Assembly (NCBI RefSeq): GCF_011046735.1
Contig: NZ_CP049258.1
Coordinates: forward strand, 3,862,001 to 3,926,000
Source: Nordella sp. HKS 07
GTDB lineage: Bacteria > Pseudomonadota > Alphaproteobacteria > Rhizobiales > Aestuariivirgaceae
Length of the DNA: 64,000 bases
Reading direction: 5' to 3'
The position numbers were made by a program, and so were the translations under genes. The notes beneath the pieces were generated by a model. The model saw only the letters and a list, made by a program, of their open reading frames with translations, searched no databases and was not told where the DNA came from. This document shows, in pieces, positions 1 through 24,793 of the stretch. How positions within the stretch are numbered: the first letter of the stretch is position 1; every line of letters starts with the position of its first letter.

Positions 1-825
1 CTCACCGAGAGGAACGGGATGGTCAAGATCGAAAGACATCAGTACACCGGTCCCCAAGATATGGGGTCCATTCCGAAAGTGACCGTCTCCACCTCCGCGC
101 ATCTCGTATGTCGCCGAACCCGACCAGACGGAAAGCGAGCCGTGGTTCTTCCGAAGGATTTCGAGACTGCCGGCCATTCCGTTTCCCTGGCCAATCGCCT
201 TGTCGCGCGTGATGCCCCGACGTAGAGCCATCTCGATCGCGTCTTTATCGCTGTCGAGGGAGAAGGATCCCGAGAGGGATCCTCGGATCCCGATCCCACC
301 ATCGCAAATCGCTATGTCGAGGTGTTTCTCTTGGGGGAAAAGCTGCGCGCAGACCACACCGGGGCTCATGGAATTGGCATGGATAAAGATGTTGTCGATG
401 ATTTCATTTACCGCCCATTCGAAGGCTGGCAGGAATGCGGGCGCGTCATCGAATTGCTGAAGCACCATATCGGCGATCCTGTTGACGGCCTCGAAGACCG
501 CCTCGCCGTCCTTCACTAGGAGGATAGGAATGAAACGGCCGGCCTCCGGCAAACGTCGATGGTTAGGTTCCGCCAGCCCAAGAGACTGGTGGAAGTTCAT
601 TCGCGCAAGATAAATGATAGATGGCCCATCGCCCGAAACATGAATCGTGCGTCCGGCAGACTTCTGGCTGAGCAGCCAACTCGTCAGGAGCCCAATTGCC
701 CCTGTCTCTAGAAAGCAGTCGCTGGCGACGCGTACTACGATGGATTGGTCAGCGGGCTCACATTGTCCAATAGCCGCTTGAATCTCGTCAACGCCAGCCC
801 TACCAGCAAGTGCGATCGTCGCCAT
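1..825 (-). CDS. STAS-like/GHKL ATPase, 3' end outside window
   Basis: From the ATG at 825 the frame stays open for 275 codons to the window edge, so the C-terminus is missing. The Bergerat-fold ATP-binding signature is visible: an N box NEIIDNIFIHA at residues 140-150, a G1 loop DGGIGI at 175-180 and a glycine-rich lid GQGNGMAG at 212-219. The first ~100 residues look like a STAS-type alpha/beta domain (my reading, less certain). It starts 6 bp after the stop of the endonuclease gene, so it belongs to the same leftward defence operon. GHKL ATPases use ATP binding or hydrolysis to change conformation or phosphorylate partners. Its role here is unknown, but an ATPase next to a helicase and a methylase suggests part of the defence machine. 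It could also be an anti-sigma-type kinase. Confidence 0.75.
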   Translation of the reverse strand, partial: MATIALAGRAGVDEIQAAIGQCEPADQSIVVRVASDCFLETGAIGLLTSWLLSQKSAGRTIHVSGDGPSIIYLARMNFHQSLGLAEPNHRRLPEAGRFIPILLVKDGEAVFEAVNRIADMVLQQFDDAPAFLPAFEWAVNEIIDNIFIHANSMSPGVVCAQLFPQEKHLDIAICDGGIGIRGSLSGSFSLDSDKDAIEMALRRGITRDKAIGQGNGMAGSLEILRKNHGSLSVWSGSATYEMRGGGDGHFRNGPHILGTGVLMSFDLDHPVPLGE

Positions 826-831
826 GGGTCG

Positions 832-2037
832 CTATTCCAACGGAAACTCTGTATGGAGAAAGGCTCTTACACTGTCCAGCGTGTTGTAGCCATGAGTCAC
901 CAGGATATCGGCAATGTCCTTGCCGGAAAGAAAGATGATCGGATGGCGATCTTCGCGGACTTCCTCATAAGCTTGCCTGGCAATCACCGACGTCGTGACT
1001 AGCACGCCGAATTGCCGGTGGCGAATGCGGGAGATCAACCGTGACACCTCCCTGATCCCGACCGTGTTAGGCCCTCGATCATCAAGTGGGGGGCGGTAAC
1101 ATTTGGCTTCGAGGGAAAACTCCGCATAGACGGGATCGTCCGACAAACCGAGCAGATAGCGTCCAACCGCATCGCGTCCGCCATCGACGCTTCCGCGTGT
1201 AATTTCATCGACTATGGCCCGCTGGTCATGCATCTGGAAGATGCGGGCCGCAAAGAATTCGAACGAATGGGGCGAGTTCTCAAAGTGGCTGTATACGATC
1301 CCCAGTATTGACTTCTTTGCGTCAGTTTCCGGCGTCTGCGCCTCCTGGCTTCGAATAACTGTCGTGCTTTCGGCGCAGAGTGGTCGGCTTCGGCCTGTAC
1401 GGACCCATTCGGTCCAAGTGCCTGGTGCATTTGCGGACATTGGGCTTCCGGCGGCTACGTCTGCCAGCCAGGCGCGTGGAACCACAGCTACGTCCAGCAC
1501 AGTGAAGACGGCTTGGTAGTTCTGAAAGCGCTTGCCTTCGGTCGTCTTCCAGACAGCGACGAGATCAGCATTTGATGTGAGCCCCGGAAAGCCGGGAATA
1601 GCCAGTCCTTTGAACTGCACGGATCTCGAGCTGATCGGCGTCGCATATTTTTGGAAAACAAGAAATGGTGGGATCGACGCGCGATCTGGTGGTGTGCCGT
1701 GGAGATTATCGAAAGCGCGCCGGAGGATCATATTGCCGCCCCGCCGTGTATCATGAAGCTCGTGACCGGGGCTTTTGTTGTCGCCGAAATAGCTGAATTT
1801 GCCAGTGCTCGTATCCAAATTGTCGGGCCAATCGGGATCCTCGCCGCTCGTATAAAGGATTACCAGGCTCTTTCTCTCACCACGGCCCGCAGCACGAAAG
1901 CCGCCTCGGTTTCCGATTCCAGGCAGTAGTCTCGAGAGCGCTTCGCCGACCAGCTGTCCGCCCGCATCACCTTCATAGACGGCATCAACAAAAAGGTCGG
2001 CGTTCGGTAGTGCCGAATATGGAATAATTCGAGGCAT
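832..2037 (-). CDS. AspBHI-like type IV (5mC-dependent) restriction endonuclease
   Basis: A 401-residue protein with two parts. Residues 1 to about 200 match the DNA-binding half of AspBHI-type enzymes, with the ordered features LLPGIGNRGGF, LYTSGEDPDWPD, GDNKSPG and HDTRRGGN. Residues from about 250 to 400 form an Mrr-like PD-(D/E)xK nuclease: FEFFAARIF, then SVDGGRDAVG giving the catalytic aspartate, then FSLEAKCY giving the E-x-K pair. Enzymes of this kind cut DNA at a distance from 5-methylcytosine sites. The ATG at 2037 directly abuts the TAG stop of the preceding gene, with no gap. Its presence in an operon that also encodes a cytosine-5 methyltransferase is odd, because the host site must escape recognition. 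The family call is fairly firm; the exact target sequence cannot be read. Confidence 0.85.
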   Translation of the reverse strand: MPRIIPYSALPNADLFVDAVYEGDAGGQLVGEALSRLLPGIGNRGGFRAAGRGERKSLVILYTSGEDPDWPDNLDTSTGKFSYFGDNKSPGHELHDTRRGGNMILRRAFDNLHGTPPDRASIPPFLVFQKYATPISSRSVQFKGLAIPGFPGLTSNADLVAVWKTTEGKRFQNYQAVFTVLDVAVVPRAWLADVAAGSPMSANAPGTWTEWVRTGRSRPLCAESTTVIRSQEAQTPETDAKKSILGIVYSHFENSPHSFEFFAARIFQMHDQRAIVDEITRGSVDGGRDAVGRYLLGLSDDPVYAEFSLEAKCYRPPLDDRGPNTVGIREVSRLISRIRHRQFGVLVTTSVIARQAYEEVREDRHPIIFLSGKDIADILVTHGYNTLDSVRAFLHTEFPLE

Positions 2038-2490
2038 CTAGTTCGACCGTCCGATCGAGCGACCACGCTTGATGATCGATTCCTCTGGCTTAGCGGATTC
2101 CAAACCGTGCGGAACTTGTTTGATTTCGTCCTTGTGCCCCTCATCGATGCACGCGAGCAGGGCACATTTGGGATCGTTGACAAGGATGTCGCTGGATGAG
2201 CGCAGCCTCAACGCCACAATCCCCGCTCTTTGAGCGGCATCATTGGATCTAAGGGGGCGATGGTGGAAATCGATCGTGACGGCATCGAGGTCCGAGCGGA
2301 TGCGAGGGATACGACCCACCTCGGAGACGTTGACGCTATCGTCCAGAACGACGGCCCATTGGTCCTCCTCGATTGCACTGTGAGTTGTCGGCCCGACGCC
2401 GATACGCACGGAATAACGGGGCGAGCCGGGCACCCTCTTGACGATCCAAGCCCTGACGGGTGGCTCGGTGGTCAGACCGGCCATTGTCAA
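2038..2490 (-). CDS. hypothetical protein of defence operon
   Basis: A 150-residue protein of no family I recognise. Its start overlaps the end of the methyltransferase gene by 4 bp (ATGA), and its stop abuts the endonuclease start, so it is translated as part of the operon. The sequence is rich in arginine, valine and isoleucine in its first 110 residues, with short beta-like stretches such as VTIDFHHRP and AGIVALRLR. The tail is charged and contains KPEESIIKRGRS. No signal peptide, membrane segment or catalytic motif is visible. It may be a small adaptor or specificity protein for the neighbouring methyltransferase or nuclease, but that is only inferred from position. Confidence 0.7.
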   Translation of the reverse strand: MTMAGLTTEPPVRAWIVKRVPGSPRYSVRIGVGPTTHSAIEEDQWAVVLDDSVNVSEVGRIPRIRSDLDAVTIDFHHRPLRSNDAAQRAGIVALRLRSSSDILVNDPKCALLACIDEGHKDEIKQVPHGLESAKPEESIIKRGRSIGRSN

Positions 2491-5400
2491 GCACCCCTCT
2501 CAAAAGTCGTCGGACGAGTGTCTTCGAGGTCAAGCGTCGACTCGGACGCGGATACGACGCGTGATCGGCGCCCACGCGCCTTGCCTGAGCCAGGCCTCCC
2601 TTCGTGCAGGCCTTGCTCGACCTCTTCCTGGTAACGCTGACGGTTCAGCTCGGCCAAGCGACCCAGAACTTCTCGGCGGGCTGTCCCCGAGATCGTGAAC
2701 CGGACTCGATCATTCTCGAGTAGGTACGAAACCTCGTGAAAGCCGTGGCCTAGATCAAGATCGTCCCATCCGTAAGAGTCGGCGAGACTTCGGTCGATTT
2801 GCCGTTGAATCCCGCGCAATTCGATTATTGCATCATCTGCAGAATCCGGACGATGGAAGTGATTGTAGAACCCAGTTAAGCCGCAACTGTTCATGGTCAT
2901 GAAGTCCAAGCGGCTTTTCTCCAACTGCTCCCCGAGGCTGAGTAGCCTCGTAGGAATCTCCGTCGGAAATGGGAAAGTCTCGAATGCGTTTCCCGGCGAA
3001 TATTTTAGCCGCGTTTCCAAGCGGGAGCAGTATTGCCGTGCCCATATTTCATGAATGCTAGATTGCAGAACGCAAAAAAGATTGATATCGGAAAAAATAT
3101 CAAGATTGGCTGAAAATACAAACTGGTTCGGCACAAGCGCAAATGCGAGGTGCTTTGTAACCTCACTGCACACCAGGACTCTGTCTGGCGTTGGCCGATC
3201 CCGGTTCCAGTCATCTGGATGTTTCTCGAAAAGATGACCGCGTCCGATGGCGTGGTAAAGCTCGGGTCTGGCGCGCAGTGGCAACCACCATTTTTCTCGA
3301 GCGACCCGATCATTTTTGACGAGTCGCTCCTCCTTTACATGATCCTCCAACCAAACATACGGCAATGGATATTTGCGTGCCCGATCCTCAGGCCAGTCCC
3401 AGAAATTGATCACCCATCTGCTGGGACGCTGCTCCGAGTCTGAATTAAGATCTTCACCGTTCAGATAAGGAAAAATTACATCAGCATTGCGCGGGTCGGC
3501 ATCTAACATTCGCTGTGCATCATCTGGCGTAAGTACAAAGCCCATACCGAGAACTATAGAGCCCTGGAACGCGATTCCTTCGTTGGCCTTCAATTTCTTA
3601 GGGCTCCATTCCTCCCGATCTGAGAGAAATGGTGAGATGTAGCGTGCAGGTCGCCCAAGTAGGCTACGTGCTGCATTCCATATGCCCTTAAGGATATGAA
3701 CTCGACTGGTGACCACGGCCGCGGCACCTGGCCAAGGTTCGTTCGGATAAGCTGCATGGATGACAGCGCCCGATTTCAGCATGGACTCGAGCCCCACCTG
3801 CCTTGTATCGCCCTCCGCGATCGTGTTGACGGCTAAGAAACCGAGATGCCCTCTCTCTCTCATCAAAGTGAATGTACGCAGGAAGAAGTACGCCACTAGA
3901 TCGGCCGAGCCACGGCGTCCTTGTGCTATTTGATCCACGAGCCAATTCCGGAAGGCAGTGCCCATCGCTCCGGTGATCCTCTGACCGCCCAGGAAAGGCG
4001 GATTTCCTACGAAAGCATCAAAGCCTCCGTTCTCGCGCAGAAACACTTCGGGGAATTCCAGTGGCCAGTGGAATGGCTGTCGCGCCACTCCGTCGGACAC
4101 ATCTTTGGCCAAGTCATTTAATGCATCCTGCAGGAGACGGACTTTTGCCGGCGTGTCGCCGCTTGCGGCGGCGTCGGCGAATGCAGCCAACGTCTGGATC
4201 CGAGCGGCCCGCTCTCCCGCACGCTCTTCGGCGAGGATGATTCCGACGAACGCATCAGCGACCCGTGTGGGCAGCTCCAACTCCCCGCGTGACTGCGCAT
4301 TGAGCGCCGCCATCGCCTCGACGTCATGAATATCGCGAATAGGGATCTCCCGCAGACGCGCGCGAAGCCCGAGCGCTTGGTCGACAGCCGAACGGATGGT
4401 TCGACCGAACAGGCGTAACTGCGCCTTGCCCTTCGGGTTCATGTCGAGCTCGACGAGCTGGCCCAGATCATGGATGCCGAGAAGGCTGTCGCCGCTCCTT
4501 AGATTGTGGTCGAGGAAGCCGAAAGGCCGACCCTTGGACATGGTCGTCAGCCAGAGCGAAAGCTTGGCCAGCTCGACGGCGAGCGGATTGCGATCCACGC
4601 CATAGAGGCAGCGTTCCGCGATGAGACGCCGTGCGAGGATCGCACGCTCTTCGGCGTCCTGCGACAAGGGCTCGAAAGCCACGCCATCGCCTTCATCAAG
4701 AAGGCGGCCTTCACTGTCGATCCGCTTGCCACTCGCCTCGGTCACGGACCAGGCCTCGACCAGTCGGTCGGAGAGCCAGCGGCACGTCTGCACAAGGAAG
4801 GCGCCCGACCCCATCGTGGGATCGCAGAACTTAAGATCCAGCAATTCACAGGCGCTCTTCAGTTCCCACTCATCGGGCGCTTTGCCCTCGGCCGGCCCAC
4901 GATAGGCCACCGGCGTAAGCGTCTCCTCGACGATCTTCTCGGTCAGACTCTTCGGCGTGTAGTGCGTGCCGCTCTCGCGCCGATCGGCGCCGAGCACGAC
5001 GACGAAGGCACCCTCGTGGTGGACAAGCGGATAACCCCAAGGGTCCGTCCGCAGGAGGGGTGCGTAGGGCAGGATGCGGTCGCGCAGACCGATGTCTCCG
5101 CGGCAGATGGTGAGCAGCCGTCCGGTGAGACGATCGTCGGTCGTCCGCTCAAGGGCGTTGCGAATGGCGGATTCCGAGCGTTCGCTCCGTTCCTTCAACA
5201 GTTCGGCGATCCTCGCCGCGCCATCCAGGCGTGCCGAATCCATCTCGCCGAGCGTTACACGGGGGCTCTTGGCCTTCGCGCCGCTGTCGAGTTCGAGAGT
5301 CACGTCGTCGACGCGCTTCACCGTGCGTTCGAGGAGACCCTCGTATACATGGCCGATCTGCTCCACGTCGAGCGCGCGATAGGACAGCGTGTGACCTTCG

Positions 5401-6596
5401 AAGGTCTGGATCGCTTCCAGCAGGAGCAGAACGGTACGGTCGTCGATCGGCAGCGGTTCCGCAGGATCACTGCGCCAGCTCGTCCCCTTCTTGCGCCCTT
5501 CGAGGAAGGGGTAGCGATCGGGATCGAACAGGGAGCCGCCGAGCGCCGGGAGGCGCAGCATCGGATGATCGATCCCGCCATAGACGCCGCGAAACAGAGC
5601 GAGCAACCGCGACCAGGCAGATCGGCGACGCTCGAGGATTTCTTCGGAATCGGCACGCAACTGCGTCCGCAGGCTGGAGATGGCGTAGAAGGCGTCGTAG
5701 CGCGGATCGCCGAGCAGCAACAGGGCGCGTTCTTCGGCTGCCAGCAGGAAGACGAGCCGCATCATCATTGTCAGGCCGGCCTCGTAGAGCTCTCGCGGAT
5801 CGACGTCGCGCAGGAGATCACGATTGCGGTCCTGGTCGGCGCGATCGAGAGCCTGGACGAGCACTTCGACGGCGCGCCGGACCTGTTCGCCCAGAGCCTC
5901 CGTCACGTCGTCCTGGTGTTTCAGAGACCGTTCATAGAGCGCGGGGAGCTTGCCCTCGTCAGGCCCGAAGAAGCGGCGGACGCCCAGAAGACTGACAAAG
6001 GCGCGCAGCGTTTCCAGCTCCTGGCCCCATAGACGCGCGTACCAGCTCGCGAAGCCTGCCACGGCGCCGACAGGCGCGTGGACGAGCATCCAGCGCTCGC
6101 CATTGGTCAGGATGCCGATGGGGCATCCCGTCGCCCGGAGCAACCACACCATCCGATCTGCTGGTGTGATCGCAAGGCCGTCGAATCGGCGGGTCGCGTC
6201 CAGATCAGTGTCGGGATCATAGACGTGGATGAGTAGGAGCGGTTCATCGCCATTCGTTGGATTGACGACCGCGATATCGGGCGCGACCGTGACCCCGTGT
6301 TCAGGCATCGAGACCGTCAGGCGCGCAGCCAGAGTCGAGCCCTTGCGCAACACCGTGTCATCCATCTCAAGCGCGGTTAGCAGCACATCGTCGATCCAGG
6401 CCGCGTGCAGGGCTGCTAGGTCGACGTCGTCCATGTCTACCGCATCGCGCCATTCCTCATATGTTCGACGCAGCCGCTGGGACCGCCCGGAAGGCAGAAC
6501 TTCGAGACCTTGGGGAAAAACATCCCTTAGAATGGGCACCGCCAAGAAGGGCCCAGAGACTTCGACGAGGTTCAGCCATTCGTGATCGTTGCTCAT
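2487..6596 (-). CDS. drmMI-like: Eco57I/DrmMI-type DNA adenine methyltransferase (1369 aa)
   Basis: A very large N6-adenine DNA methyltransferase. The SAM-binding motif I appears as FCDPTMGSGAF near the middle, and the catalytic motif IV as NPPFLGG some 300 residues later; NPPF marks an amino-methyltransferase. The long N-terminal region (WLNLVEVSGPFLAVP, then FPQGLEVL) and the total length fit the DrmMI methylase of class 1 DISARM and the related PglX-like enzymes. A C-terminal target-recognition region follows the catalytic domain. The gene overlaps the helicase stop by 4 bp (ATGA), giving coupled translation. In DISARM, methylation by DrmMI marks self DNA. The drmA, drmB and drmC genes are not in view; they may lie left of the window or be absent. 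Confidence 0.85.
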   Translation of the reverse strand: MSNDHEWLNLVEVSGPFLAVPILRDVFPQGLEVLPSGRSQRLRRTYEEWRDAVDMDDVDLAALHAAWIDDVLLTALEMDDTVLRKGSTLAARLTVSMPEHGVTVAPDIAVVNPTNGDEPLLLIHVYDPDTDLDATRRFDGLAITPADRMVWLLRATGCPIGILTNGERWMLVHAPVGAVAGFASWYARLWGQELETLRAFVSLLGVRRFFGPDEGKLPALYERSLKHQDDVTEALGEQVRRAVEVLVQALDRADQDRNRDLLRDVDPRELYEAGLTMMMRLVFLLAAEERALLLLGDPRYDAFYAISSLRTQLRADSEEILERRRSAWSRLLALFRGVYGGIDHPMLRLPALGGSLFDPDRYPFLEGRKKGTSWRSDPAEPLPIDDRTVLLLLEAIQTFEGHTLSYRALDVEQIGHVYEGLLERTVKRVDDVTLELDSGAKAKSPRVTLGEMDSARLDGAARIAELLKERSERSESAIRNALERTTDDRLTGRLLTICRGDIGLRDRILPYAPLLRTDPWGYPLVHHEGAFVVVLGADRRESGTHYTPKSLTEKIVEETLTPVAYRGPAEGKAPDEWELKSACELLDLKFCDPTMGSGAFLVQTCRWLSDRLVEAWSVTEASGKRIDSEGRLLDEGDGVAFEPLSQDAEERAILARRLIAERCLYGVDRNPLAVELAKLSLWLTTMSKGRPFGFLDHNLRSGDSLLGIHDLGQLVELDMNPKGKAQLRLFGRTIRSAVDQALGLRARLREIPIRDIHDVEAMAALNAQSRGELELPTRVADAFVGIILAEERAGERAARIQTLAAFADAAASGDTPAKVRLLQDALNDLAKDVSDGVARQPFHWPLEFPEVFLRENGGFDAFVGNPPFLGGQRITGAMGTAFRNWLVDQIAQGRRGSADLVAYFFLRTFTLMRERGHLGFLAVNTIAEGDTRQVGLESMLKSGAVIHAAYPNEPWPGAAAVVTSRVHILKGIWNAARSLLGRPARYISPFLSDREEWSPKKLKANEGIAFQGSIVLGMGFVLTPDDAQRMLDADPRNADVIFPYLNGEDLNSDSEQRPSRWVINFWDWPEDRARKYPLPYVWLEDHVKEERLVKNDRVAREKWWLPLRARPELYHAIGRGHLFEKHPDDWNRDRPTPDRVLVCSEVTKHLAFALVPNQFVFSANLDIFSDINLFCVLQSSIHEIWARQYCSRLETRLKYSPGNAFETFPFPTEIPTRLLSLGEQLEKSRLDFMTMNSCGLTGFYNHFHRPDSADDAIIELRGIQRQIDRSLADSYGWDDLDLGHGFHEVSYLLENDRVRFTISGTARREVLGRLAELNRQRYQEEVEQGLHEGRPGSGKARGRRSRVVSASESTLDLEDTRPTTFERGA

Positions 6597-9500
6597 TCGC
6601 GCTTCTCCGTCGCGACGGACTTCGGCACCAACAGCACGACGGCCACCGGGAAGGTGTGCTCGATAGCGTTGGAGTGCCGTTCCTCGATCGCGCGCAACTC
6701 TTGTTCTCGTTCCTTCGGGATCCGGGTCAGGCGCGCTTCGAGGGCCGCCCGGTCGCGCTTGAGCTGCGTGAGCTCATCCTCGGAGAAGGGCAGCATGGGT
6801 CGTTCTTCCGCGGCGATCTCTGTCTTCAAGGCTCGTTCGAGGTCGTCCAGAACCTGCCGGATGTCATCGGCCTCCTTGCGCTTTCGGGTTTCGATCGTGT
6901 TCACGAGGAAACGCAACCGATCCTTCGAGCGAGCCTCGACGGCGGCCAAAACGGCGTTATGCTGCTTGTCGAACCGGGTCCGCAAGGCGCCGAACGTCGA
7001 ATCCGACAGGGTTGCGGGTTGCGATTCCTCAAGCCAACGGCGAACCTCCGTAACCCGATCCTCCCGCCGGAAACCGGAATCGCGCAGATAGCCCCCGGCC
7101 TCGGTGAGTTCCTCGTGCAGGCGATGATGGTTCCCGCCGGTCACAACGAGCCGCGACATTACCACTACGGCCGGACCCTCAATCCACCCATCCGGAAGTG
7201 AGCGAACGGTCACACGGTGCAGTCTCTTGACATCGTCACGAGCCCAGATCTCCGCGCGCAGGAGCCGGAGACTCATCTGGACCAGCCGATGGTTCAGGTG
7301 GACGAGGACAACGTCGTCACGTCCTTTGGCGACATCGTGGTCGAAAGTGATGGGGCGGATCCTCTGGGTGTAGGGATGTTCGAGCCCCTCGAGGCATCGA
7401 GACCACGACCCTGACAAGACGGGAATTCGAAAGACGGTCCCGTCCGGCGCCCCCGACAGTGAGACCGGTTCTAGATCGGGCTTGTCTGCAAGACGCAGAG
7501 CAGTACGCACGGCCCGTTCGATGTGAGCAGGCACGAGGCTCTGTTCCCGCCGGGTCTCGTTCAGCCGTTCGTGGAGTTTGGCTACACGTTCGCGAAGATC
7601 ACGCTCGGCCTTCATGAAACGGCGCGATTTCTCCATTCGAATTTCGGCTTGTCGCGTGTCGAGATCGCGGCGGCGACCCTCGAGGAGGTCCGGTAGTTGA
7701 GGTGCGATGACCGGGTTGACGCTGCCCATGTCGTCACGCATGGCATCCAGTTTGCGAAGCGCACGCAGGATATCCTCTCCATGGCCACCCTTGGCATCCA
7801 CCGGGTGCCAGATGACAACCTCGCTGGCGCGTTGCCCATGGCGGTCGATGCGGCCGTTCCGCTGTTCCATCACATTCGGGTTGTACGGAATTTCGAGGTG
7901 GATCATCAGGTGGCAGTGGTTCTGAAGATCGATGCCCTCGGAAGCCGCATCGGTCGCCAGCAGGATCCTCACCGGGGATTCCGAGGGATTGGCCTGGAAC
8001 GCGGCCTTCACGGTCTCGCGTTCCTTCGGATCCATGCCCCCATAGATCAGAGCCAGTCGCCCGGCCCCGAAATCTTGGGCCGCGAGGATATCATGCATCC
8101 ATTGCTGAGTGGCGCGGTACTCGGTGAATAAGATCACCCGCTCGTTCTTCCACCTGTCACCGTCCTTCAGGTGTCGGGCCAACCAATCCAGCACAGCGCT
8201 GGCCTTGGCATCTGTTCGACGAGCCGCCTGCTGAGCCCATGACCGTAACCGGTCGAGCATCCGCCGCTCTTCGTCAGTTGGTGGACGAACGTGTTTGCCG
8301 GATTCCTCGATCGCTTCAGCCTCGGCGGCGTCCCGCTGTGCGTCGTCTGCATAGTCTTCCTCGGTCTTCGCAATCGCCCGCCGGAGGATACGGTCATCGA
8401 ATTTCTTCTGGCTGCACCCGCTGGACGCCCGGCCCTCGATTGTCGCGATATGCCGCTCCAGTGTGGTTGTGAACGCCGCAGGGGACGATGAGAGGCGCTT
8501 GCGCAGTAATTGGTGCACGAAGTGATCGACGGCCCGCCCGCCACCGGCACCGCTTTCGCGACTCTTGATGTATGCTTCCAGCTGCCGCCGAACGCTCCTC
8601 TCGTCTTCGGTATACTCGACCGGCAGCGCTTCAAGTAGCCTCTTGGGGTAGATGCGCTTGCCATTTGCATCGACCAGATCGCTCTTCAGCCTACGGACCA
8701 TGACCCGGGCGAGTTGGAGGTCGCTTGGGAGCACGTTTCTCGCGAACCGCTGATCATCGAGGAGTTCAAGGAGCGCGGTGAAGGATTCGGTGTAACCATC
8801 GTGCGGCGTGGCGGTCAGAAACAGCTTGTGCTGGAAGTGTGGCGCGGCTAGACGGACCAGCCGTGTCCTAAGACTCTCGACGGGATAACGGCCGACGGTC
8901 GGAGCGACGTTGTGAGCCTCGTCGATGATCAAAAGATCGAACTTCCTGGGATGACCGACGTGCGGGGGCAATGCGTCCCGCAGAAGACGCAAACCTTCAC
9001 CCTGCTTGGCCCAGTCCATCGACGTGATGAGACGGGGAAAAGAAGTCCACGGATTGGCGTGCAGTCCCCGCTCTCGGCGCAAATGCTTGATGTATTCAGT
9101 GTCGACGATCCGGAATTCGAGCCCGAATTTCTCCTGCATCTCGATACGCCACTTTTCCTGCAATGAGGCTGGGCAAAGCACCAGCACGGTGCGAGCGCGA
9201 TGGCGAAGGAGCATTTCTTGCACGACGAGGCCGGCTTCAATGGTTTTGCCGAGGCCGACGTCATCGGCGATCAGCAAACTGGCACGGGCCATGTCGATGG
9301 CGCGCACCAAGGGATCAAGCTGGAAGTCCTCGATGCTGGCGCCACTGCGGAAGGGTGCCTGCAGGTAGCCGCGGTCGGCATTGGTAGCCGCACCCCAACG
9401 AACAGCATCAAGAAATGCTTGCAGGGTCACCGGATCGTCCAAGCCGGTAACTCGGGGCAGCCCGGCCCGCTCAATGACGTGAGCGCCCGGTTCGAGCTCC

Positions 9501-9706
9501 CACAGAACTTCGATTTCCTCTCCGAGTGCGTCCTCATCGATCGATGCGAGACGGACGAGGTGTCGCTTCGGGAGATTTGGCGCAACGGAACCGCCGTCCA
9601 CCTCTGAAACGATCCACTGGCGGCGCCGTGCTTCAACCAACTGTCCAGGCTCGGGAGCCGTGTGAAGCGCGACCGGTGTTGCGGGGCCGCTTGCACCTGT
9701 AATCAT
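6593..9706 (-). CDS. drmD-like: SNF2-family helicase, DISARM DrmD-like
   Basis: A 1037-residue superfamily 2 DNA translocase. The Walker A motif DVGLGKTIEAG lies near residue 150, the Walker B box IIDEAHN near 265, and motif III reads LTATPHDG. The second RecA-like domain contains LFTEYRATQQW and ATDAASEGIDLQ, followed by QRNGRIDRHGQ (motif VI). The C-terminal 350 residues are charged and partly coiled-coil. Length and domain order match DrmD of class 1 DISARM, where the helicase works with the DrmMI methylase encoded next door, as here. The start at 9706 overlaps the Vsr stop by 4 bp and is preceded by a GGAGG ribosome-binding site. The helicase identity is secure; assignment to DISARM rather than to a related helicase-methylase-ATPase system is inferred. 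Confidence 0.88.
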   Translation of the reverse strand: MITGASGPATPVALHTAPEPGQLVEARRRQWIVSEVDGGSVAPNLPKRHLVRLASIDEDALGEEIEVLWELEPGAHVIERAGLPRVTGLDDPVTLQAFLDAVRWGAATNADRGYLQAPFRSGASIEDFQLDPLVRAIDMARASLLIADDVGLGKTIEAGLVVQEMLLRHRARTVLVLCPASLQEKWRIEMQEKFGLEFRIVDTEYIKHLRRERGLHANPWTSFPRLITSMDWAKQGEGLRLLRDALPPHVGHPRKFDLLIIDEAHNVAPTVGRYPVESLRTRLVRLAAPHFQHKLFLTATPHDGYTESFTALLELLDDQRFARNVLPSDLQLARVMVRRLKSDLVDANGKRIYPKRLLEALPVEYTEDERSVRRQLEAYIKSRESGAGGGRAVDHFVHQLLRKRLSSSPAAFTTTLERHIATIEGRASSGCSQKKFDDRILRRAIAKTEEDYADDAQRDAAEAEAIEESGKHVRPPTDEERRMLDRLRSWAQQAARRTDAKASAVLDWLARHLKDGDRWKNERVILFTEYRATQQWMHDILAAQDFGAGRLALIYGGMDPKERETVKAAFQANPSESPVRILLATDAASEGIDLQNHCHLMIHLEIPYNPNVMEQRNGRIDRHGQRASEVVIWHPVDAKGGHGEDILRALRKLDAMRDDMGSVNPVIAPQLPDLLEGRRRDLDTRQAEIRMEKSRRFMKAERDLRERVAKLHERLNETRREQSLVPAHIERAVRTALRLADKPDLEPVSLSGAPDGTVFRIPVLSGSWSRCLEGLEHPYTQRIRPITFDHDVAKGRDDVVLVHLNHRLVQMSLRLLRAEIWARDDVKRLHRVTVRSLPDGWIEGPAVVVMSRLVVTGGNHHRLHEELTEAGGYLRDSGFRREDRVTEVRRWLEESQPATLSDSTFGALRTRFDKQHNAVLAAVEARSKDRLRFLVNTIETRKRKEADDIRQVLDDLERALKTEIAAEERPMLPFSEDELTQLKRDRAALEARLTRIPKEREQELRAIEERHSNAIEHTFPVAVVLLVPKSVATEKRE

Positions 9707-10137
9707 GAAAGGCCTCCGCCATGCTTGCGAGCTTCGACTATCTGGGCAATGCGGTGGGCTGCATCGTCGGCGTTTTCATGAGCCCAGACACGGACAACCC
9801 TCCAGCCCAGCGACTGCAGTAGCCGATCGGTTTCGGCGTCTCGCGCGCGGTTGGTCTCGATCTTTTCGCGCCAAAAGTCTGCATTGCTCTTTGGCCAAGA
9901 GGCGTGTTCCGGACAGCCATGCCAGAAACAGCCATCGACAAAGATGGCGACACGAGTGCGGGAGAAGACGATGTCGGCCACGCGACGTGGCTTAGTCAGC
10001 AGCGGCACGTGCAAGCGATAGCGAAGGCGTTTTGTGTGCAACGCCTTCCGCAAGTCGATTTCGGCCTTTGTGCCCTTCTGCCGGACGCGGGCCATCCGGA
10101 GACTTGCTTCATGCGACGAGGGGCTTACGCGCGACAT
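9703..10137 (-). CDS. vsr: very short patch repair endonuclease (Vsr)
   Basis: A 144-residue Vsr-family endonuclease. The family core is complete: KGTKAEIDLRKAL near residue 22, then the zinc/active-site segment FVDGCFWHGCPEH, and the downstream N-FW-K-N-RD pattern ending in LGWRVVRVWAHE. Vsr nicks 5' to the thymine of T:G mismatches that arise when 5-methylcytosine deaminates, so it is usually paired with a cytosine-5 methyltransferase, exactly as here. I keep the ATG at 10137 because GGGAGG stands 9 bases upstream. This start lies inside the end of the methyltransferase gene, a 29-bp overlap. An internal ATG at 10095 is possible but has no good ribosome-binding site. Confidence 0.92.
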   Translation of the reverse strand: MSRVSPSSHEASLRMARVRQKGTKAEIDLRKALHTKRLRYRLHVPLLTKPRRVADIVFSRTRVAIFVDGCFWHGCPEHASWPKSNADFWREKIETNRARDAETDRLLQSLGWRVVRVWAHENADDAAHRIAQIVEARKHGGGLS

Positions 10138-11209
10138 CCGCGATGCCTCCCTTCTTACCCATGGAATTCGTTTTGCCGGGCTTGATGCCGAGGTGCGCCG
10201 AAATGCTCTGCCCGATTACCTTGCCGAGGGTGACCGGAACCGCGTTGCCGATCATGCGGCCCAGTGCTTTGAAATGGATGGGATCACCTTCGGGAACAAA
10301 GGAATATGAGGGCGGAAATCCTTGGAGAATTGCGCCCTCTCGCAGCGATATGGCGCGGTCCTGCTCTGGGTGCCCAAATCGACCATTTCCGAACCCATAA
10401 AATTGGGTTGTCAAAGTTGGGGCGGGCTCATCCCAGACCATTCGACCGTACACACCCGGATACGTGTAACCCGTCTCGCGCCGATGACACTCAGCGACCA
10501 GATGTCTCGGCCAATCACGCCAAGTGCCTCCAGGGCGCGACGCACGGATTCGCTTGAAGTTCAGATCGGACAGCATGGAAGCCGAATGCAGAGGATCCTT
10601 AGCGTGAGCAGCTCCCTGCCGGATGGACGGCAATTTCCCGATAGCCCCGCGGACGGTCGCCGGCCGCTCATGCGTAGGCCCAATCAGCTCGATCGGGCCG
10701 ATGAGAGAGGCGAGGAGCACCATACGACGTCGACTTTGGGGTAGTCCGTAAAGTGTGCAATCGACGATGTCTTGGTAGACCCAGTACCCCAATTTCATTA
10801 GCGCTTTGACGAAATCGTCGAACACGGAGTGCTGGGTGACCGCCGGAACATTCTCCATCGTTACCAACTCGGGGCGGATAGTCTTGATCAGTCGCGCAAA
10901 CCGGTACAGGAGGCCCCATCGGGCGCTGCCGACTACATCGTACCGCTGCGCGTATGTCGAAAATGGTTGGCAAGGCGCGCACCCAGCCAGGACGCGAACG
11001 TCAGCGCCCCTGAAGAGCTTGTTGATCCGACTCGGGGATACTCGTCCGACGTCTTCTTTTAAGAATAGGGCCGCGTTATTTGTTTCAAAGGGATACCGAC
11101 ACGCTTCGTCGACATCAATACCCGCGACGACCTTAATTCCCTCCAAAATCAGACCATGCGTTAGACCTCCTGCACCACAAAACAAGTCGACGCATGCAAC
11201 ATCACCCAT
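10109..11209 (-). CDS. dcm: DNA (cytosine-5-)-methyltransferase
   Basis: A 366-residue m5C methyltransferase with the ordered family motifs: I (DLFCGAGGLT), IV with the catalytic cysteine (CAPCQPFS), VI (ENV), VIII (QSRRR), then LQGFP and the motif X IGNAVP near the end. It transfers a methyl group from SAM to cytosine C5 in a specific sequence set by the variable region between motifs VIII and IX, which cannot be read here. I place the start at 11209, where GGGGGAGAG sits about 6 bases upstream; a frame extension to 11263 has no such site. It is the first gene of the leftward defence operon and is followed by an overlapping vsr. The 236 bp upstream should contain the operon promoter. Confidence 0.93.
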   Translation of the reverse strand: MGDVACVDLFCGAGGLTHGLILEGIKVVAGIDVDEACRYPFETNNAALFLKEDVGRVSPSRINKLFRGADVRVLAGCAPCQPFSTYAQRYDVVGSARWGLLYRFARLIKTIRPELVTMENVPAVTQHSVFDDFVKALMKLGYWVYQDIVDCTLYGLPQSRRRMVLLASLIGPIELIGPTHERPATVRGAIGKLPSIRQGAAHAKDPLHSASMLSDLNFKRIRASRPGGTWRDWPRHLVAECHRRETGYTYPGVYGRMVWDEPAPTLTTQFYGFGNGRFGHPEQDRAISLREGAILQGFPPSYSFVPEGDPIHFKALGRMIGNAVPVTLGKVIGQSISAHLGIKPGKTNSMGKKGGIADVARKPLVA

Positions 11210-11263
11210 CCGTATTCTCTCCCCCGAATGCTCCTGTTTTCTGCCACGGCGGGCTAGCCTCAA

Positions 11264-12658: not shown

Positions 12659-12735
12659 GCAGCCGTAGCTCAGCTGGACAGAGCGCTGCCCTCCGAAGGC
12701 AGAGGTCACAGGTTCGAATCCTGTCGGGTGCGCCA
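12659..12735 (+). tRNA. tRNA-Arg(CCG)
   Basis: A 77-base cloverleaf with D-arm GTAGCTCAGCTGGACAGAGC, anticodon stem CTGCC/GGCAG enclosing the loop CTCCGAA (anticodon CCG), T-arm ACAGG/CCTGT and encoded CCA. The acceptor stem has one mismatch: position 4 is G against G at position 69, where related genes have C. The gene may still work or may be the first sign of decay. An integrase fragment begins just downstream, so this tRNA was probably an integration target as well. Confidence 0.8.
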
Positions 12736-12813
12736 TCACATCAAGCGCTTAGCCGATTCCTGTGAGGGGTCCGGCCTTGGAGTCACCAAGGAGTCACCAC
12801 GAATTCTAGCGAC

Positions 12814-13068
12814 GTGGTCAACATCCTACGTTATTGCCGGCGAGCGCGCAGGCACCATCTTGTGAACCTCCGTAAGCCATGGCTTCGCCTTTGCAAGATC
12901 GCCCGCCTTAATGGCGTTCGGCTTCGCGACCTGCGGCACAGTTTCGCCAGCGTCGGCGCCGGCGGTGGCGTCTCGCTGCCGATCATCGGCCCACTGCTTG
13001 GGCACACCAAGAGGTCGACGACCGAGCGCTACAGTTATCTTTCGGCCGATCCAGTGCGGGCAGCTAAC
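12814..13068 (+). pseudogene. tyrosine integrase, C-terminal fragment
   Basis: The frame encodes the catalytic C-terminal end of a phage-type integrase: RLRDLRHSFAS (the H-x-x-R motif), PIIGPLLGHTKRSTT and the tyrosine region ERYSYLSADPVRAAN. Everything N-terminal to this is missing. After VRAAN the frame runs straight into primase sequence (GLRHPSGAE, then a stop), so the two genes were fused by a deletion. It lies right after tRNA-Arg(CCG), the expected place for an integrase of an element that used that tRNA. Confidence 0.8.
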
Positions 13069-13528
13069 GGACTGAGGCATCCCTCGGGTGCCGAATAGCC
13101 GGCGATGGTCGCGCTGGTTACCCACGGCGTGGACGGGATTCCGATAGGCATCCACCGAACTTTTCTTCGGCTCGATGGCAGTGGAAAGGCCGCGGTCAAG
13201 CCAGCCAAGATGATGCTGGGACCGTGTCGCGGCGGCGTTGTCCGTCTTGCAGAACTTGGAGAAGTCCTGATGGTTGGCGAAGGCATCGAGACATGCCTTG
13301 CGGCTATGCAGGCAAGCGGTCACACGGCATGGGCCGCTCTCTCGACCTCGGGTCTTCGCACTCTCGACCTGCCGCGCGAGGTTCGTGACGTTATCGTGAT
13401 CGTCGATGGCGACGATCCCGGCGAAGCGGCGGCGCGGGAATGCGCCTGGCGCTGGAAGCGGGAAGGGCGGCGTGTGCGCATCGCCCGAGCTGGTTCGCCG
13501 CACGCATGGCAACGAGGAGGCCGCGTGA
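13069..13528 (+). pseudogene. Toprim primase-like gene, truncated and broken
   Basis: This is a decayed relative of the intact Toprim gene at 44889-45767. The shared core is clear: MVALVT, the RPAKMMLG segment, CRGGVVRLA, VLMVGEGIETCL and the metal-binding VDGDDPGEAAA. The first ~150 residues are missing. A TAG at 13096-13098 replaces the tryptophan found in the intact copy (TEWPAMVA). Near 13485-13510 the frame departs from the intact copy; the old stop (TGA 13526-13528) is in another frame and overlaps the next start as TGATG. It cannot make a full primase. Confidence 0.8.
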
Positions 13529-15363
13529 TGAATACGTTCGATGCGGGCAGAGATGCAGTCCGCGGGGCCATTGTTGGCGCCGAGGAAGTTACCGACCCGC
13601 TGGACGGCCTCGTCGACAGGATTACTGCCGATCCCGGTGCCGCCTTCGTGCCAGAGGTGGTCGAACGCCTCGCGACACTCAAGCGGGACGATCGCGCCGC
13701 TTTCGAAGCGCTTCGAACGCAACTCAAGAAAGCCGGATGTCGTGTTACAGTCCTCGATGACGCGATCGCCAAGGAAAGCGGCGAAGCGGGTGGGCGCCGG
13801 CCGACGCAAGCGGATATCCTTATTGAGCTTGCGCGGAGCGCCGAGTTCTTCCACGCGCCAGATGGGACGGGGTTTGCTGACATCGAGGTCAACGGCCACC
13901 GGGAGACCTGGCCAATCCGCGCCAGGGGCTTTCGGCGATGGCTTTTTCGTCGCTTTTTCGAGGCTACCGGTGGTGGGCCGAGCTCCGAAGCATTGCAATC
14001 GGCCCTCAACGTGATCGAGGCCAATGCACATTACGATGCGCCAGAGCGTATCGTACATGTTCGCATTGGTGGGCAAGACGGACGGCCTTATCTCGACCTC
14101 TGCAACGATACATGGCAGGCGTTGGAAATCAATCCGGACGGCTGGCGGATAGTTGACAATCCGCCGGTGCGTTTTCGTCGCGCTGCCGGGATGCAGGCGC
14201 TGCCGTCGCCTGTTCCGGGCGGATCGGTTGATGCGCTGCGATCGTTCCTGAATGTGCGATCCGATGCCGATTTCGTGCTGGTGATCGCTTGGGCGCTTGC
14301 CTGCTTGCGCGACCGCGGTCCCTATCCGGTGATGGTACTGTCCGGCGAGCAGGGCTCGGCCAAATCTACCTTCTCGGCATGACTGCGAGCATTGATTGAT
14401 CCTAACATCGCACCTTTGCGTGCTTTGCCGCGCGACGATCGCGACTTGTTCATCGCCGCAGGTAATGGTCATATACTCGCTTTCGACAACGTTTCGGGTC
14501 TTCCAGCATGGCTTTCCGACACGTTCTGCCGTCTGGCCACCGGCGGCGGTTTCGCAGTCCGGCAGCTTTATACAGACCAGGAAGAGGTGCTGTTCGACGC
14601 CACCCGGCCGGTGATCCTAAATGGCATTGAGGACTTCGTGACGCGGCCCGACCTTGCGGACCGTTCCCTACTCCTGCCGTTGGAACAGATATCTGAGGAA
14701 CGCCGCCGACCTGAACAGGAGTTATGGGTAGCATTCGAGGCCGAGTGCCCGCGCATTATCGGTGCGCTTCTCGACGCGGTAGTTAAGGGTCTAGCGATGC
14801 TGCCGCACACCCGGCTCGAACGGTTGCCGCGCATGGCCGACTTGGCGCTCTGGGCGACGGCCTGCGAAACGGCGCGATGGGCAGCCGGCACATTCTGGTC
14901 GGCATATTGCGGCAATCGCGATGCGGCGGTGGAGGGCGTGATCGAGGCGGATCCGATCGCCGCCGCTCTGCGAGCGATGATGGTGGCACAAACGGAGTGG
15001 ACCGGCACCGCGTCGGAGCTTTTGGAAGCTCTTGACCAGAAGGCGGGTGCGCGAGTCGCCAACTCGAAGGCCTGGCCTAGCAGCCCGCAGGCGCTGGCAG
15101 GCCGCGTGCGCCGAGCGGCGGCCTTCCTGCGCAAGATCGGCATCGAGATTAGCTTAGGGCGTGATGGCCGGGCGCGGACCCGTGTCATCCGCATCAGCAT
15201 GACGGAGCCTCCCTCGCCAGAAACTGGAGGAGCGCAACCGTCCGCATCGTCCGTATCGTCCGCGCTTCCACCGAACGACAATCCTTCGCAGGTTCAGAAC
15301 CACAATCCGTGCAGACCGTTGCGGACGAAGCAGGGGGTAAAAACGACTTACCGTCCGCACTAA
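13528..15363 (+). pseudogene. phage/plasmid helicase-like ATPase gene with an in-frame TGA
   Basis: The frame starts at MNTFDAGRDAV with GAGGAGG upstream and encodes about 611 residues, interrupted by a TGA at 14380-14382. The stop falls 4 residues after the Walker A motif GEQGSAKST; beyond it the same frame continues with RALIDPNIAPLRALPRDDRD, the Walker B-like HILAFDNVSG and an arginine-rich region NGIEDFVTRPDLADRS. Related proteins are helicase partners of the Toprim primase in integrated elements. A single C-to-T change (CGA to TGA) would explain the stop. It is very likely inactive, although the downstream part has an ATG-less reopening that could not make a P-loop. Confidence 0.8.
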
Positions 15364-19469: not shown

Positions 19470-22400
19470 TCATTCCCGTGCCGTCTGGTTGAGATGAGAC
19501 ACGACCGCCGGATAGACATCGCGGGCGGCGTTCTTGCCAAAGATGCTGTCGAGATGCCCTGTTTCTGCAATGACGTGGCGCTCGTATAGATGGCGGCCGT
19601 TGGTGCCAGCGAGCAGTTCCATAGTTTTGATGGTGCCGGGGGGCGCGAAGCAGTGGTTCAGCGTACCATGGAAGAACAGTGTCGGTATGGCGAAGTTGCG
19701 CAGGTTGGCGTCGCACAAATAGTCGTCGGTGCCGTCGGCCCGAATAACATGGCCCGCCCGCGCGATGGCTGAAAGGTGGCGAAACGCCGTGACGTTCGCA
19801 GTGCCGAACATTTCCGGCATTGCCTCGAGAGTACCTTCGTTGAGCTGTTGGAGCTGATAGAGCTGCCCATAGAGGGCTGTAATACGCCGGCTGGTCAGAT
19901 TGTGGCTTCGGTCGTCGGATCGGAACGGATAACCGAAGCCTATGATCACGTCGACAATGCGTTCGAAAAGAGGACGATCGACACTCGAGCGCGCGTCCAC
20001 CAGCTTGATTCCGATGAGGTGAAGCAGATCGGGTGCGTGCAGGTATGCCAGAATCCGCTGTGGCAACCATGGAACCACCGCATGTGTAGAAATTTGTGAG
20101 ATCGCGGCCGCCCGGACATATTTCAAACCCGTCAACATGGCCATGCTGAAGGTCATTGCCCCGTAGCAGTGAGTGAGCATTTGCACGGTGTTGCTTCCGG
20201 ACCTGTTGCGCACATAGTCGACAGCTGGCTGATAGTCGTATTTGGCGACGACATCAGCATTCCATTGCTCGTGTGAATATTGTAAATCGGTGCTCGCCCG
20301 GTAGTCCAGGAGCCAGCAATCGTAGCCAGCGGCGTAGACGAATTCGAGCATATTGGTGTCGATCGTGTCGATCGAGAAGATCAAGCTCGATACGCCAAGG
20401 CCGTGAACGAAGATAACCGGTCCCTTGCGGCCCCCCTTATAGCGCGTCAGGCGCAGCTTCTTGCCATCGGCGGTATCGAAGAAATGCACTTCCGGAGCGC
20501 TGACGCGCAACGGCCGCTTGATCCGTGTCGTGTGCGGGTCGAAGGCGACGGGGCGGGCGATCGGACCACCGAAACTATCGAATATCCGCCCAGCGAAGAA
20601 ACGGCCGAAGTCTGCGGCCATTTTGAGGCGCGCAGACAGGTTTGGAGCGTCGGTCACCACCATCGTGCGCAACTGGTTGATAAAATCATGCGCGGCAATA
20701 TTCAAAATTCCTTCGTAGAGCACTGGCCCGGATTCATCGGCGCCTTGATGGATGGTCACGGCGAGCGTCGTCGTGTCTCGCCAAAGATCGAAGCCGCGGT
20801 CGTCATGGATGCTCTTGATGCCGCGCATGAAGTAACGGCCGCCGTCGCGCGCCGTCAGCGGCATCGCATAGTTCATCTGCTTGGTCTCGACGCGGCCGGG
20901 ATCGACGATGAACAGGTTGAAGCGACCGCCCGAAACGGTGAGGGGATCGGGCGAGAGCGCGTGGGCCTCGAAGGTCCCAATCAACTCGGCTTCATGGTCG
21001 CGTTCGTTGATAAAACGGTTAGCATCCTGTGCATGCACGGTGCAAATGAATGAGGCATCGGACTTGGGGCCACCATTCGCAGGTTGAATGGTTCCGCTCA
21101 TCCGCTCTGTGAACTGAATGCCGGTGGTTCTAACCGCAGCCGCATCTGCTGCGGGCTGCCGGGGTGTGAGATCGATATTGCGCTTCTCCCGCTGCGCCAG
21201 GCGGATCATCGCGCGTTCCGAAATCGCGGAGATGGTGAGGAGCGGGTTGACCCCGAGCGAACGGGGTATCATTGAGCCGTCGCAAACATAGAGGCCGGGA
21301 TGGATGGCGGTTCCGCTGTTGCCGGCATAGACACGGCAATCGCCATCGAGCACGCCAAGGGAGGCTTCCTTGCCCATTGGGCAGCCGCCGAGGGGATGTA
21401 CGGTAACGAGCCGATGTTGCATCAGCTTGCTCCATATTGGGTTGGGAACATAGGTGCCGCCGGTCGCCTGCACGGCGGTGCGGATCTTCTCAGCAATGCG
21501 GCCGTACGTTGCGGAGCTCCCTATCGCCGGCCAATCGACCACGAGGCGGTCCTGAGCCAGCCGCATCTCGCCATTCGATCCATCATGCGCCATCGCGAGG
21601 AAGGTCTGGGTTTGGTTGACCGCTCCGCGATAGGGGCCGAAGGTGAGGCTTTCCACTTCCCGGCTGATTTCCGATAGACGGTCACCCTCGTCGGTGTCGC
21701 GGCCGAGAGCCACCGAGGCGATCGCCATGACATCTGGAAGAAACGATCCGAGGCCTCCCGGTATGACGCCTTCCTCGATGACTATGCCGTCGTCCAGCTC
21801 CGGCGTGGCGCGTAAATCGATTAGGCCGGCAATGGTCGGGCCGACCGGGCGCTTGTTCGATTTTGCCGGATCATAGTCAGCCGCTTCGACGCCAATGCCG
21901 ATCCCGTCGATTGGCATGTCGTTGTTATAACCGAAAGCGAGCACGTCGCCATTGCCGGTGAAGCCCGTGCCGATCCTGCTTGACACGGAAAGTCCGCGGT
22001 CACGCGAGCGGAGCAAAATTTCTGTCGAGCCGAGCGTGCCGGCGGCGAGCACGACGATACGCGCCGACACAGTACTCTCATCATCCGCGAATAGTTGGCG
22101 GCCGAAGCCCAAAGGAACATAGGCGATGCGCCAGCCGCCGGCAGCGCGTCCGACCGCACGGACGCGAACGCCGCAGAAGACCTCCGCGCCGCCAGCGGCT
22201 GCATCAGCAACGTAATTCATCAGCGTCGTGTTCTTCGCTCCGACGTTACAGCCCGAACAGCAGTCTCCACATAAGGTGCACGCCCGCTGATGCACGCCGG
22301 CGCTGTTAACTCGTTCCTCGAACGTCACATTTATGGGCGGGCGCTCATAGGTGACGCCCAGTGCCGTGGCAGCCCTTTCAAGCGCCTTTAGTTTGTTAAG

Positions 22401-24642: not shown

Positions 24643-24793
24643 GCGATGTTCCCATTACAACAGAACACGGTAATTCAGTGTAACCGCTGTCTGCCCAAAC
24701 GTAAATTGTGAATATCTCATAACGTGCTCATCAGATCATTGGACGAACAATCTTAATTTGATTTTTTCGCCGATATCATATATTTCCTATGAC

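Follow-up and report, generated by a model that had tools for sequence, protein, structure and literature searches.

What kind of defence system is encoded at the left edge of a 64,000-nucleotide stretch of the genome of Nordella sp. HKS 07? This stretch, which we will call the window, comprises bases 3862001-3926000 of a single 7,184,314-base contig (NZ_CP049258.1). At positions 1-11263, seven open reading frames (ORFs) all read leftward, and each overlaps or abuts the next. A preliminary description, made from the window's sequence, had recognized this layout and had identified DrmD, DrmMI, Vsr, a cytosine methylase, and an AspBHI-like nuclease; the ORFs, their junctions, and their family matches confirm these points. 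It also listed a 150-residue unknown protein and a separate STAS-GHKL ATPase, saw no drmA, drmB, or drmC, and considered a variant of DISARM, a variant of Hma, or an undescribed combination. The sequence analysis described here points to the first (with a probability of roughly 0.8): a complete class 1 DISARM whose drmMI/drmA junction took up a cargo cassette, namely an AspBHI-like nuclease and a new front for DrmA with GHKL, STAS, and EVE-like parts.

The operon is cut by the window's left edge, so we added the 20 kb to the left (coordinates there are given on stretches L003 and L002). The missing drmA, drmB, and drmC follow immediately to the left, in the canonical order; their absence holds for the window but not for the locus. 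The preliminary description had stated that this finding would make the operon a class 1 DISARM with added genes. Class 1 DISARM was reportedly described by Ofir and co-workers in 2018 as drmD-drmMI-drmA-drmB-drmC, and, judging by family matches, all five core genes are present here in that order. The full gene order is dcm-vsr-drmD-drmMI-(stub-mREase)-drmA-drmB-drmC, where mREase stands for a putative modification-dependent restriction endonuclease and the stub is the 150-residue ORF:

10109..11209, minus strand: dcm, DNA (cytosine-5) methylase, DrmMII-like (PF00145, 167.4 bits; PADLOC DrmMII, 291.1 bits; PCQ and ENV motifs)
9703..10137, minus strand: vsr, very-short-patch mismatch endonuclease (TIGR00632, 115.9 bits, cut-off 97.85)
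6593..9706, minus strand: drmD, SNF2-like helicase (NCBIfam NF038317 DISARM_DrmD, 1345.3 bits, cut-off 610; GLGKT and DEAH motifs)
2487..6596, minus strand: drmMI, adenine-type MmeI/PglX-like methylase (PADLOC DrmMI, 1832.6 bits; DPTMGSG and NPPF motifs)
2038..2490, minus strand: stub, by homology to relatives' drmA starts a truncated ancestral drmA 5' end (~80 codons of the EVE-like region), then unrelated sequence
832..2037, minus strand: cargo, putative AspBHI/MspJI-family modification-dependent restriction endonuclease (Pfam, PDB, and PADLOC matches and motifs)
1..825, minus strand: 5' part of drmA (first 275 amino acids); the frame continues outside the window
L003:1654-6825, minus strand: drmA, whole gene, 1723 amino acids, running off the window (NF038325 DISARM_DrmAS, 1464.9 bits, cut-off 950, residues 525-1700)
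L002:13816-15696, minus strand: drmB (DUF1998/MZB; NF038324, 745.6 bits, cut-off 240)
L002:13055-13819, minus strand: drmC (DrmC_I, PLD nuclease; NF038319, 238.1 bits, cut-off 133)

The start of dcm is uncertain (ATG at 11209 or TTG at 11263), and for many relatives the alignment begins only at residue 8-22 of the longer version. The vsr/drmD and drmD/drmMI junctions are both ATGA overlaps, and the ATG of drmA is 6 nucleotides past the stop codon of the mREase. A 1.66-kb insert separates drmMI from drmA; the order D-MI-A-B-C is otherwise contiguous. Despite its DrmA label, the PADLOC model PDLC02572 is a full-length match to the window's DrmD (1560.4 bits).

An Hma system is recognized by a helicase with HmaA as its best match, along with HmaB and HmaC. 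The window's operon does have helicase, methylase, and ATPase-like parts, and its helicase has a weak match to HmaA (230.8 bits in PADLOC), but DrmD scores far higher (1427.2 bits in PADLOC and 1345.3 bits in NCBIfam), and neither HmaB nor HmaC is among the matches listed for the window's proteins. Four of the five class 1 proteins pass their NCBIfam cut-offs, and DrmMI matches PADLOC (the matches listed from the NCBIfam profile search of the window's proteins include none to DrmMI). Given the scores of DrmD and the presence of drmA-drmB-drmC, which already refutes this alternative, we rejected an Hma variant; either that or an undescribed system that shares parts with DISARM is extremely unlikely.

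The nuclease that lies within the insert has two domains above their Pfam cut-offs, the AspBHI N-terminal domain (PF18062, 213.3 bits) and the Mrr_cat catalytic domain (PF04471, 48.8 bits). Residues 10-394 of 401 align with AspBHI itself (PDB 4OC8; E = 4.8e-98), including the DGGRD...EAK region, and the protein matches PADLOC's mREase_II at 523.9 bits, with the DGGRD and EAK motifs present. It shares this domain content with the AspBHI/MspJI enzymes and differs from them in being encoded inside a DISARM operon.

The 150-residue ORF had no family match in PADLOC, Pfam, or NCBIfam, and no match in plasmid records. In tblastn against 77 loci, its first 77-78 residues are similar to the sequence that immediately precedes the DrmA core, with 63-70% identity to seven cargo-free relatives (L004, L005, L007, L009, L015, L028, and L069). 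Its DNA is 77-83% identical to nine of the ten drmA 5' ends that we tried, up to about codon 80, and then there is a sharp break. The likelier start of the ORF is the ATG at 2484, and its TAG directly abuts the ATG of the nuclease. Excerpts of a 2025 preprint (PMC12458937) report that class 1 DrmA has an EVE-like domain at its N-terminus, and predict that it reads modified bases. A profile of this region from relatives (54 of the 64 regions listed were taken into the alignment) matches the solved DrmA 7S9V over residues 5-156 (E = 4.1e-60). Given the homology to relatives' drmA starts and the profile match, we read the ORF as the front part of the EVE-like region of an old drmA, left behind when that gene was broken. 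The protein and DNA homology led us to reject a new 150-residue family. L044 (Bauldia litoralis) has a second drmA stub, the end of which overlaps the first gene of a different cargo by ATGA.

Could the stub be a working stand-alone EVE-like reader or a partner of the nuclease? No stop interrupts the frame for 150 codons, the nuclease's ATG follows its last base without a gap, and the preprint (PMC12458937, excerpts) predicts that EVE-like domains recognize modified bases. But just ~80 of the region's ~130 codons are present, the remainder is unrelated, and conserved positions are altered (such as RILRIRS to RIPRIRS). By best tblastn match and among ORFs of at least 80 amino acids, no separate copy lies beside the mREases of L008, L030, L046, L049, or L076. 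The stub may stay open because it couples the translation of drmMI to that of the first cargo gene, and coupling needs no protein function. We consider a working protein to be quite improbable.

The ORF that had been called a separate STAS-GHKL ATPase runs off the window and proved to be the first 275 residues of the 1723-residue DrmA frame, so we rejected a separate gene. DrmA contains a GHKL-like part (~113-235), a STAS-like DUF4325 domain (313-373; 40.4 bits, cut-off 23), an EVE-like region (~391-500), and the helicase core (525-1700). The GHKL label is further based on the DGGIG and GQGNGM glycine-box motifs and on likeness to separate frames, one of which is annotated as a DUF4325 protein; in the motif scan of DrmA, the GHKL N-box pattern as written and one other pattern gave no match. 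There is a recombination break in drmA at nucleotide ~1552 (codon ~518). Past it, the DNA is 78-80% identical to that of five relatives, and the protein core is again up to 90% identical to that of cargo-free relatives. The local tblastn matches of the EVE-like region are at ~26-40%. We propose that the ancestral drmA start received an insertion of the AspBHI-like nuclease together with a new drmA front, made up of GHKL-STAS and a divergent EVE-like region. The right-hand recombination break would lie between the EVE-like region and the DrmA core.

Does the fusion occur elsewhere? In 781 genome searches (384 + 397, from overlapping samples), the GHKL-STAS front was found as separate frames of at most 469 amino acids, at ~28-33% identity, and none were fused to DrmA. 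Seven separate frames (L098-L104) have 414-469 amino acids and are ~27-33% identical to the front of the window's DrmA; we found no DISARM protein in their surroundings, where some stretches ended at contig ends. PADLOC's DrmA model PDLC02567 (1750 positions) aligns over residues 27-1719 of DrmA, including the GHKL part, so such fusions have probably been seen by others already, if apparently unremarked.

To see how the drmMI/drmA junction compares with others, we used 77 loci that encode relatives of DrmMI. Both drmMI and a drmA core are present in 68, and nine lack one of these in the available stretch. Cargo ORFs of at least 80 amino acids lie at the junction in 41 of the 68 loci. In 40 of the 66 loci that pass the score limits, more than 900 bp separate drmMI from drmA, as compared to 2/70 for drmD-drmMI, 1/64 for drmA-drmB, and 0/57 for drmB-drmC. 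Pooled, this is 40/66 versus 3/191 (Fisher p = 1e-25, which is descriptive because the loci are related). Almost all of the cargo ORFs (69 of 71) are in the direction of the operon, and 30 of the 114 spacings between neighbouring ORFs (counting drmMI and drmA) are an exact 4-base overlap. (The cargo ORFs were picked by length, not with a gene finder, and some in L022 and L055 are doubtful; L050 and L068 have a gap above 1 kb with no cargo ORF of at least 80 amino acids.) On a tree of DrmA cores, which included 66 of the 68 loci and the window (two cores under 800 amino acids were left out), at least 33 changes of cargo label are required. We will call this junction the slot.

The sole gaps above 900 bp elsewhere between drmD and drmC are inserts of ~2 kb, in L024 and L053 (drmD-drmMI) and L066 (drmA-drmB). 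Also, a distant DrmA-DrmB pair (L097:475-7599, in genome G364) has ~2 kb between two parts of its match to DrmB. Within drmMI, the best matching segment covers only the first part of the window's protein in L042 (1-722 at 89%), L068 (1-444 at 90%), and L050 (1-926 at 74%). These partial matches suggest an exchange of the target-recognition half.

Chance does not account for this combination of genes. Among the 59 loci with more than 2.5 kb available ahead of drmD, 48 have dcm within 3 kb upstream and 39 have vsr within 1.5 kb (the vsr count includes five matches far downstream). This linkage and the recurrence of the AspBHI-like nuclease in other DISARM loci led us to reject a chance assembly. 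The nuclease is intact at the same junction in L008, L030, L046, L049, and L076, and fragments of it are found there in L043 and L072. Seven carriers of the mREase (a count that includes the window and the L072 fragment, while the L043 fragment is labelled apart) correspond to seven changes on the DrmA-core tree. The slot mREases and one non-DISARM homologue form one clade (support 100/100).

The other cargo is diverse. For most clusters we scanned one representative, and ten further single ORFs were left out of the scan; the names actin-like and TIR-like come partly from our reading of the sequences.

GHKL ATPase with a part matching SpbK: 15
GHKL ATPase and Methyltransf_35 pair: 10 (representatives had no PADLOC match)
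AspBHI-like nuclease: 6, one a fragment
PDC-S39 (DUF7380/DUF4209): 5
Actin-like protein: 4, three of them beside an SNF2 helicase that PADLOC labels DrmD
KAP/PifA-like: 3
AlbA_2 protein: two identical loci
L054:15948-19130: RT_UG5-nitrilase (948.1 bits), single
L058:3711-5156: PD-T7-1 homologue (586.5 bits), single
NsnA/GmrS-like protein, single

Among the cargo families that match PADLOC defence models are PifA, RT-nitrilase, PD-T7-1, and mREase. PADLOC's PDLC02623, although labelled DrmD, matches a slot helicase (2006.6 bits) that is found beside the true DrmD in L020. There are 20 plasmid records with the nuclease, and we inspected six, two of which are unannotated. By annotation, the Microvirga terrae plasmid pR24_2 has the same layout, with an "ATP-binding protein" and an "O-methyltransferase" in the slot. 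On a Deinococcus plasmid the DISARM is cargo-free, with vsr and the cytosine methylase located past drmC.

Is the cargo connected to DISARM? The genes could be unconnected passengers, each an independent defence gene, at a junction that tolerates insertion and provides a promoter. We give this close to an even chance. Against it, insertion is almost wholly limited to one junction, the slot nucleases are nearly one clade, the window's DrmA is itself fused to GHKL-STAS, and within one clade a different cargo goes with a different EVE-like front. The last point comes from 19 loci whose cores are 83-90% identical to the window's. Three of these carry the GHKL and Methyltransf_35 pair and 16 are cargo-free. 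The EVE-like regions of the three are 58-94% identical to each other and 26-38% identical to those of the 16, while the core identities within this comparison are 85-95% throughout. In at least this clade, then, DrmA's front and the cargo vary together. We also considered whether EVE-like regions track the cargo across all DISARM, and this is unsupported in general: the excess is clear only among close relatives.

From the two stubs and this one clade, we suggest that recombination may replace the cargo and, along with it, the 5' part of drmA that encodes the EVE-like region. A stronger possibility, which is less likely than not, is that the junction is a dedicated port for exchangeable modules: cargo and drmA front would be swapped as a unit, and the cargo proteins (notably the recurrent GHKL ATPases) would work through DrmA's N-terminus. 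If so, the window's GHKL-STAS-EVE-DrmA would be a Rosetta-stone fusion that reveals a contact between cargo and DrmA, and DISARM would be a platform with interchangeable sensors or effectors and not a fixed five-gene system.

What might the nuclease do in a class 1 DISARM? According to the excerpted text of Bravo 2022 (PMC9142583), unmethylated DNA is a stronger stimulus than methylated DNA for the ATPase of DISARM's DrmAB. DrmMI and Dcm would mark self DNA, and DrmABC would attack incoming DNA that is unmodified. AspBHI-type enzymes cut DNA that carries modified cytosine. The nuclease could thus cover the complementary case of phage DNA with modified cytosines, which would require that the Dcm motif be outside the nuclease's recognition context. 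By analogy to BREX with BrxU, such complementary cover is the likeliest role for the nuclease. In the part of PMC8565348 that we rely on, BREX is paired with the type IV enzyme BrxU, a modified-cytosine-dependent nuclease that gives complementary protection. Both cases combine a methylation-based system with a modified-cytosine-dependent nuclease; they differ in that the partner is BREX instead of DISARM and that BrxU belongs to the GmrSD family while the window's nuclease belongs to AspBHI/MspJI. The window's operon also offers a case in which to test how a system that methylates cytosines can live with a methylcytosine-dependent nuclease among its own genes.

Several observations weigh against our view of the locus. 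First, the GHKL part of DrmA is below its Pfam cut-off (18.5 bits versus 26.4), and the best match to the GHKL-STAS front in the 77 DrmMI loci had E = 0.41. The combination of stub, mREase, and GHKL-STAS-DrmA was seen in this genome alone. Second, the window's EVE-like region (~391-500) is 20-25% identical to those of near relatives, and the EVE-like assignment derives from the preprint (PMC12458937, excerpts). Third, conservation of the stub rests on two loci. The excess similarity of EVE-like regions with the same cargo is small at most core distances (0.307 versus 0.299 at 62-68% core identity). In a permutation test that ignores phylogeny, 0 of 2000 label shuffles reached the observed value if "none" was not counted as a shared label, and 6 of 2000 did if it was. 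Fourth, a 5-methylcytosine-dependent nuclease beside a 5-methylcytosine methylase brings a risk of self-cleavage. A dcm gene precedes drmD in two of the five loci whose slot mREase is intact and in 46 of 54 others (p = 0.04, ignoring relatedness), so the two genes may often be incompatible. (One locus with an intact slot mREase, L046, has a Dcm match upstream on the other strand.) In the window the nuclease and dcm coexist, which means either that they act in different sequence contexts or that the system has little activity.

Alternatively, the operon might be decaying, with a chimeric drmA, a broken drmA start, an incompatible pair of nuclease and methylase, and no function left. The stub is a real truncation, and mREase fragments are present at this slot in L043 and L072. 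But all eight genes apart from the stub are open and full-length, most of the sequence motifs that we looked for in the operon's proteins are present, and the 1750-position DrmA model covers nearly the whole chimera, which suggests that such forms of DrmA exist elsewhere. Decay is unlikely, and we continue to favour a complete class 1 DISARM with a cargo cassette.

How new is this arrangement? The type of operon is already known. As in other class 1 DISARM, all five core genes are present with the same order and direction, and the relatives, too, usually have dcm and vsr before drmD. The window's operon differs in adding the AspBHI-like nuclease and the drmA stub at the drmMI/drmA junction, and in the GHKL-STAS front and divergent EVE-like region of its DrmA. 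There is published precedent for cargo: ~70 homologues of the stand-alone defence protein ShdA lie inside DISARM-like operons (PMC10270631, excerpts). That report concerns one cargo family, in Pseudomonas only, and the excerpted text names no common junction and no swapping. We found no description of the drmMI/drmA slot among the full-text papers searched, a set that excluded Ofir 2018 and supplements. As far as this search shows, the apparent novelty is a slot with diverse and repeatedly exchanged genes, several of which are known defence genes. If this is correct, then any catalogue that recognizes DISARM through the five core genes overlooks the part that varies, and undescribed defence genes, such as the GHKL and Methyltransf_35 pair, could be sought specifically in the slot.

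The operon is probably on acquired DNA. Of the five genomes of the genus, only this one encodes DrmMI (at E <= 1e-20), and among the candidates scored, the other four match the 13-14 kb on either side over less than 100 bases only. Also, at 12659-13098 of the window, a tRNA-Arg(ccg) is followed by a weak match to the C-terminal end of a tyrosine recombinase (23 bits, cut-off 27.1). We take these three features together as signs of acquisition. The preliminary description's mention of a plasmid-borne operon is unsupported, as the window sits in the single large contig. After the tRNA and the recombinase end, there is a phage-type primase (Toprim/DUF7146) up to 14382, and 13068-15274 has a 79% copy at G000:C1:1089589-1091830.

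Beside drmC, at L002:8719-12746, are three rightward genes: a 479-residue unknown protein, a 561-residue SNF2-type helicase with a weak terminal match to SWIM, and a 240-residue protein with no matches. They are possibly another defence module that is convergent with DISARM. Further into the window, a 1366-residue ORF (24758-28858) has an N-terminal helix-turn-helix as the only part seen by Pfam, and it matches a PADLOC control protein at 48.7 bits. At 19470-22859 is a 1129-residue fusion of a GMC oxidoreductase and an alpha/beta hydrolase, which adjoins a beta-lactamase-fold/polyketide-cyclase protein and a metallophosphatase.

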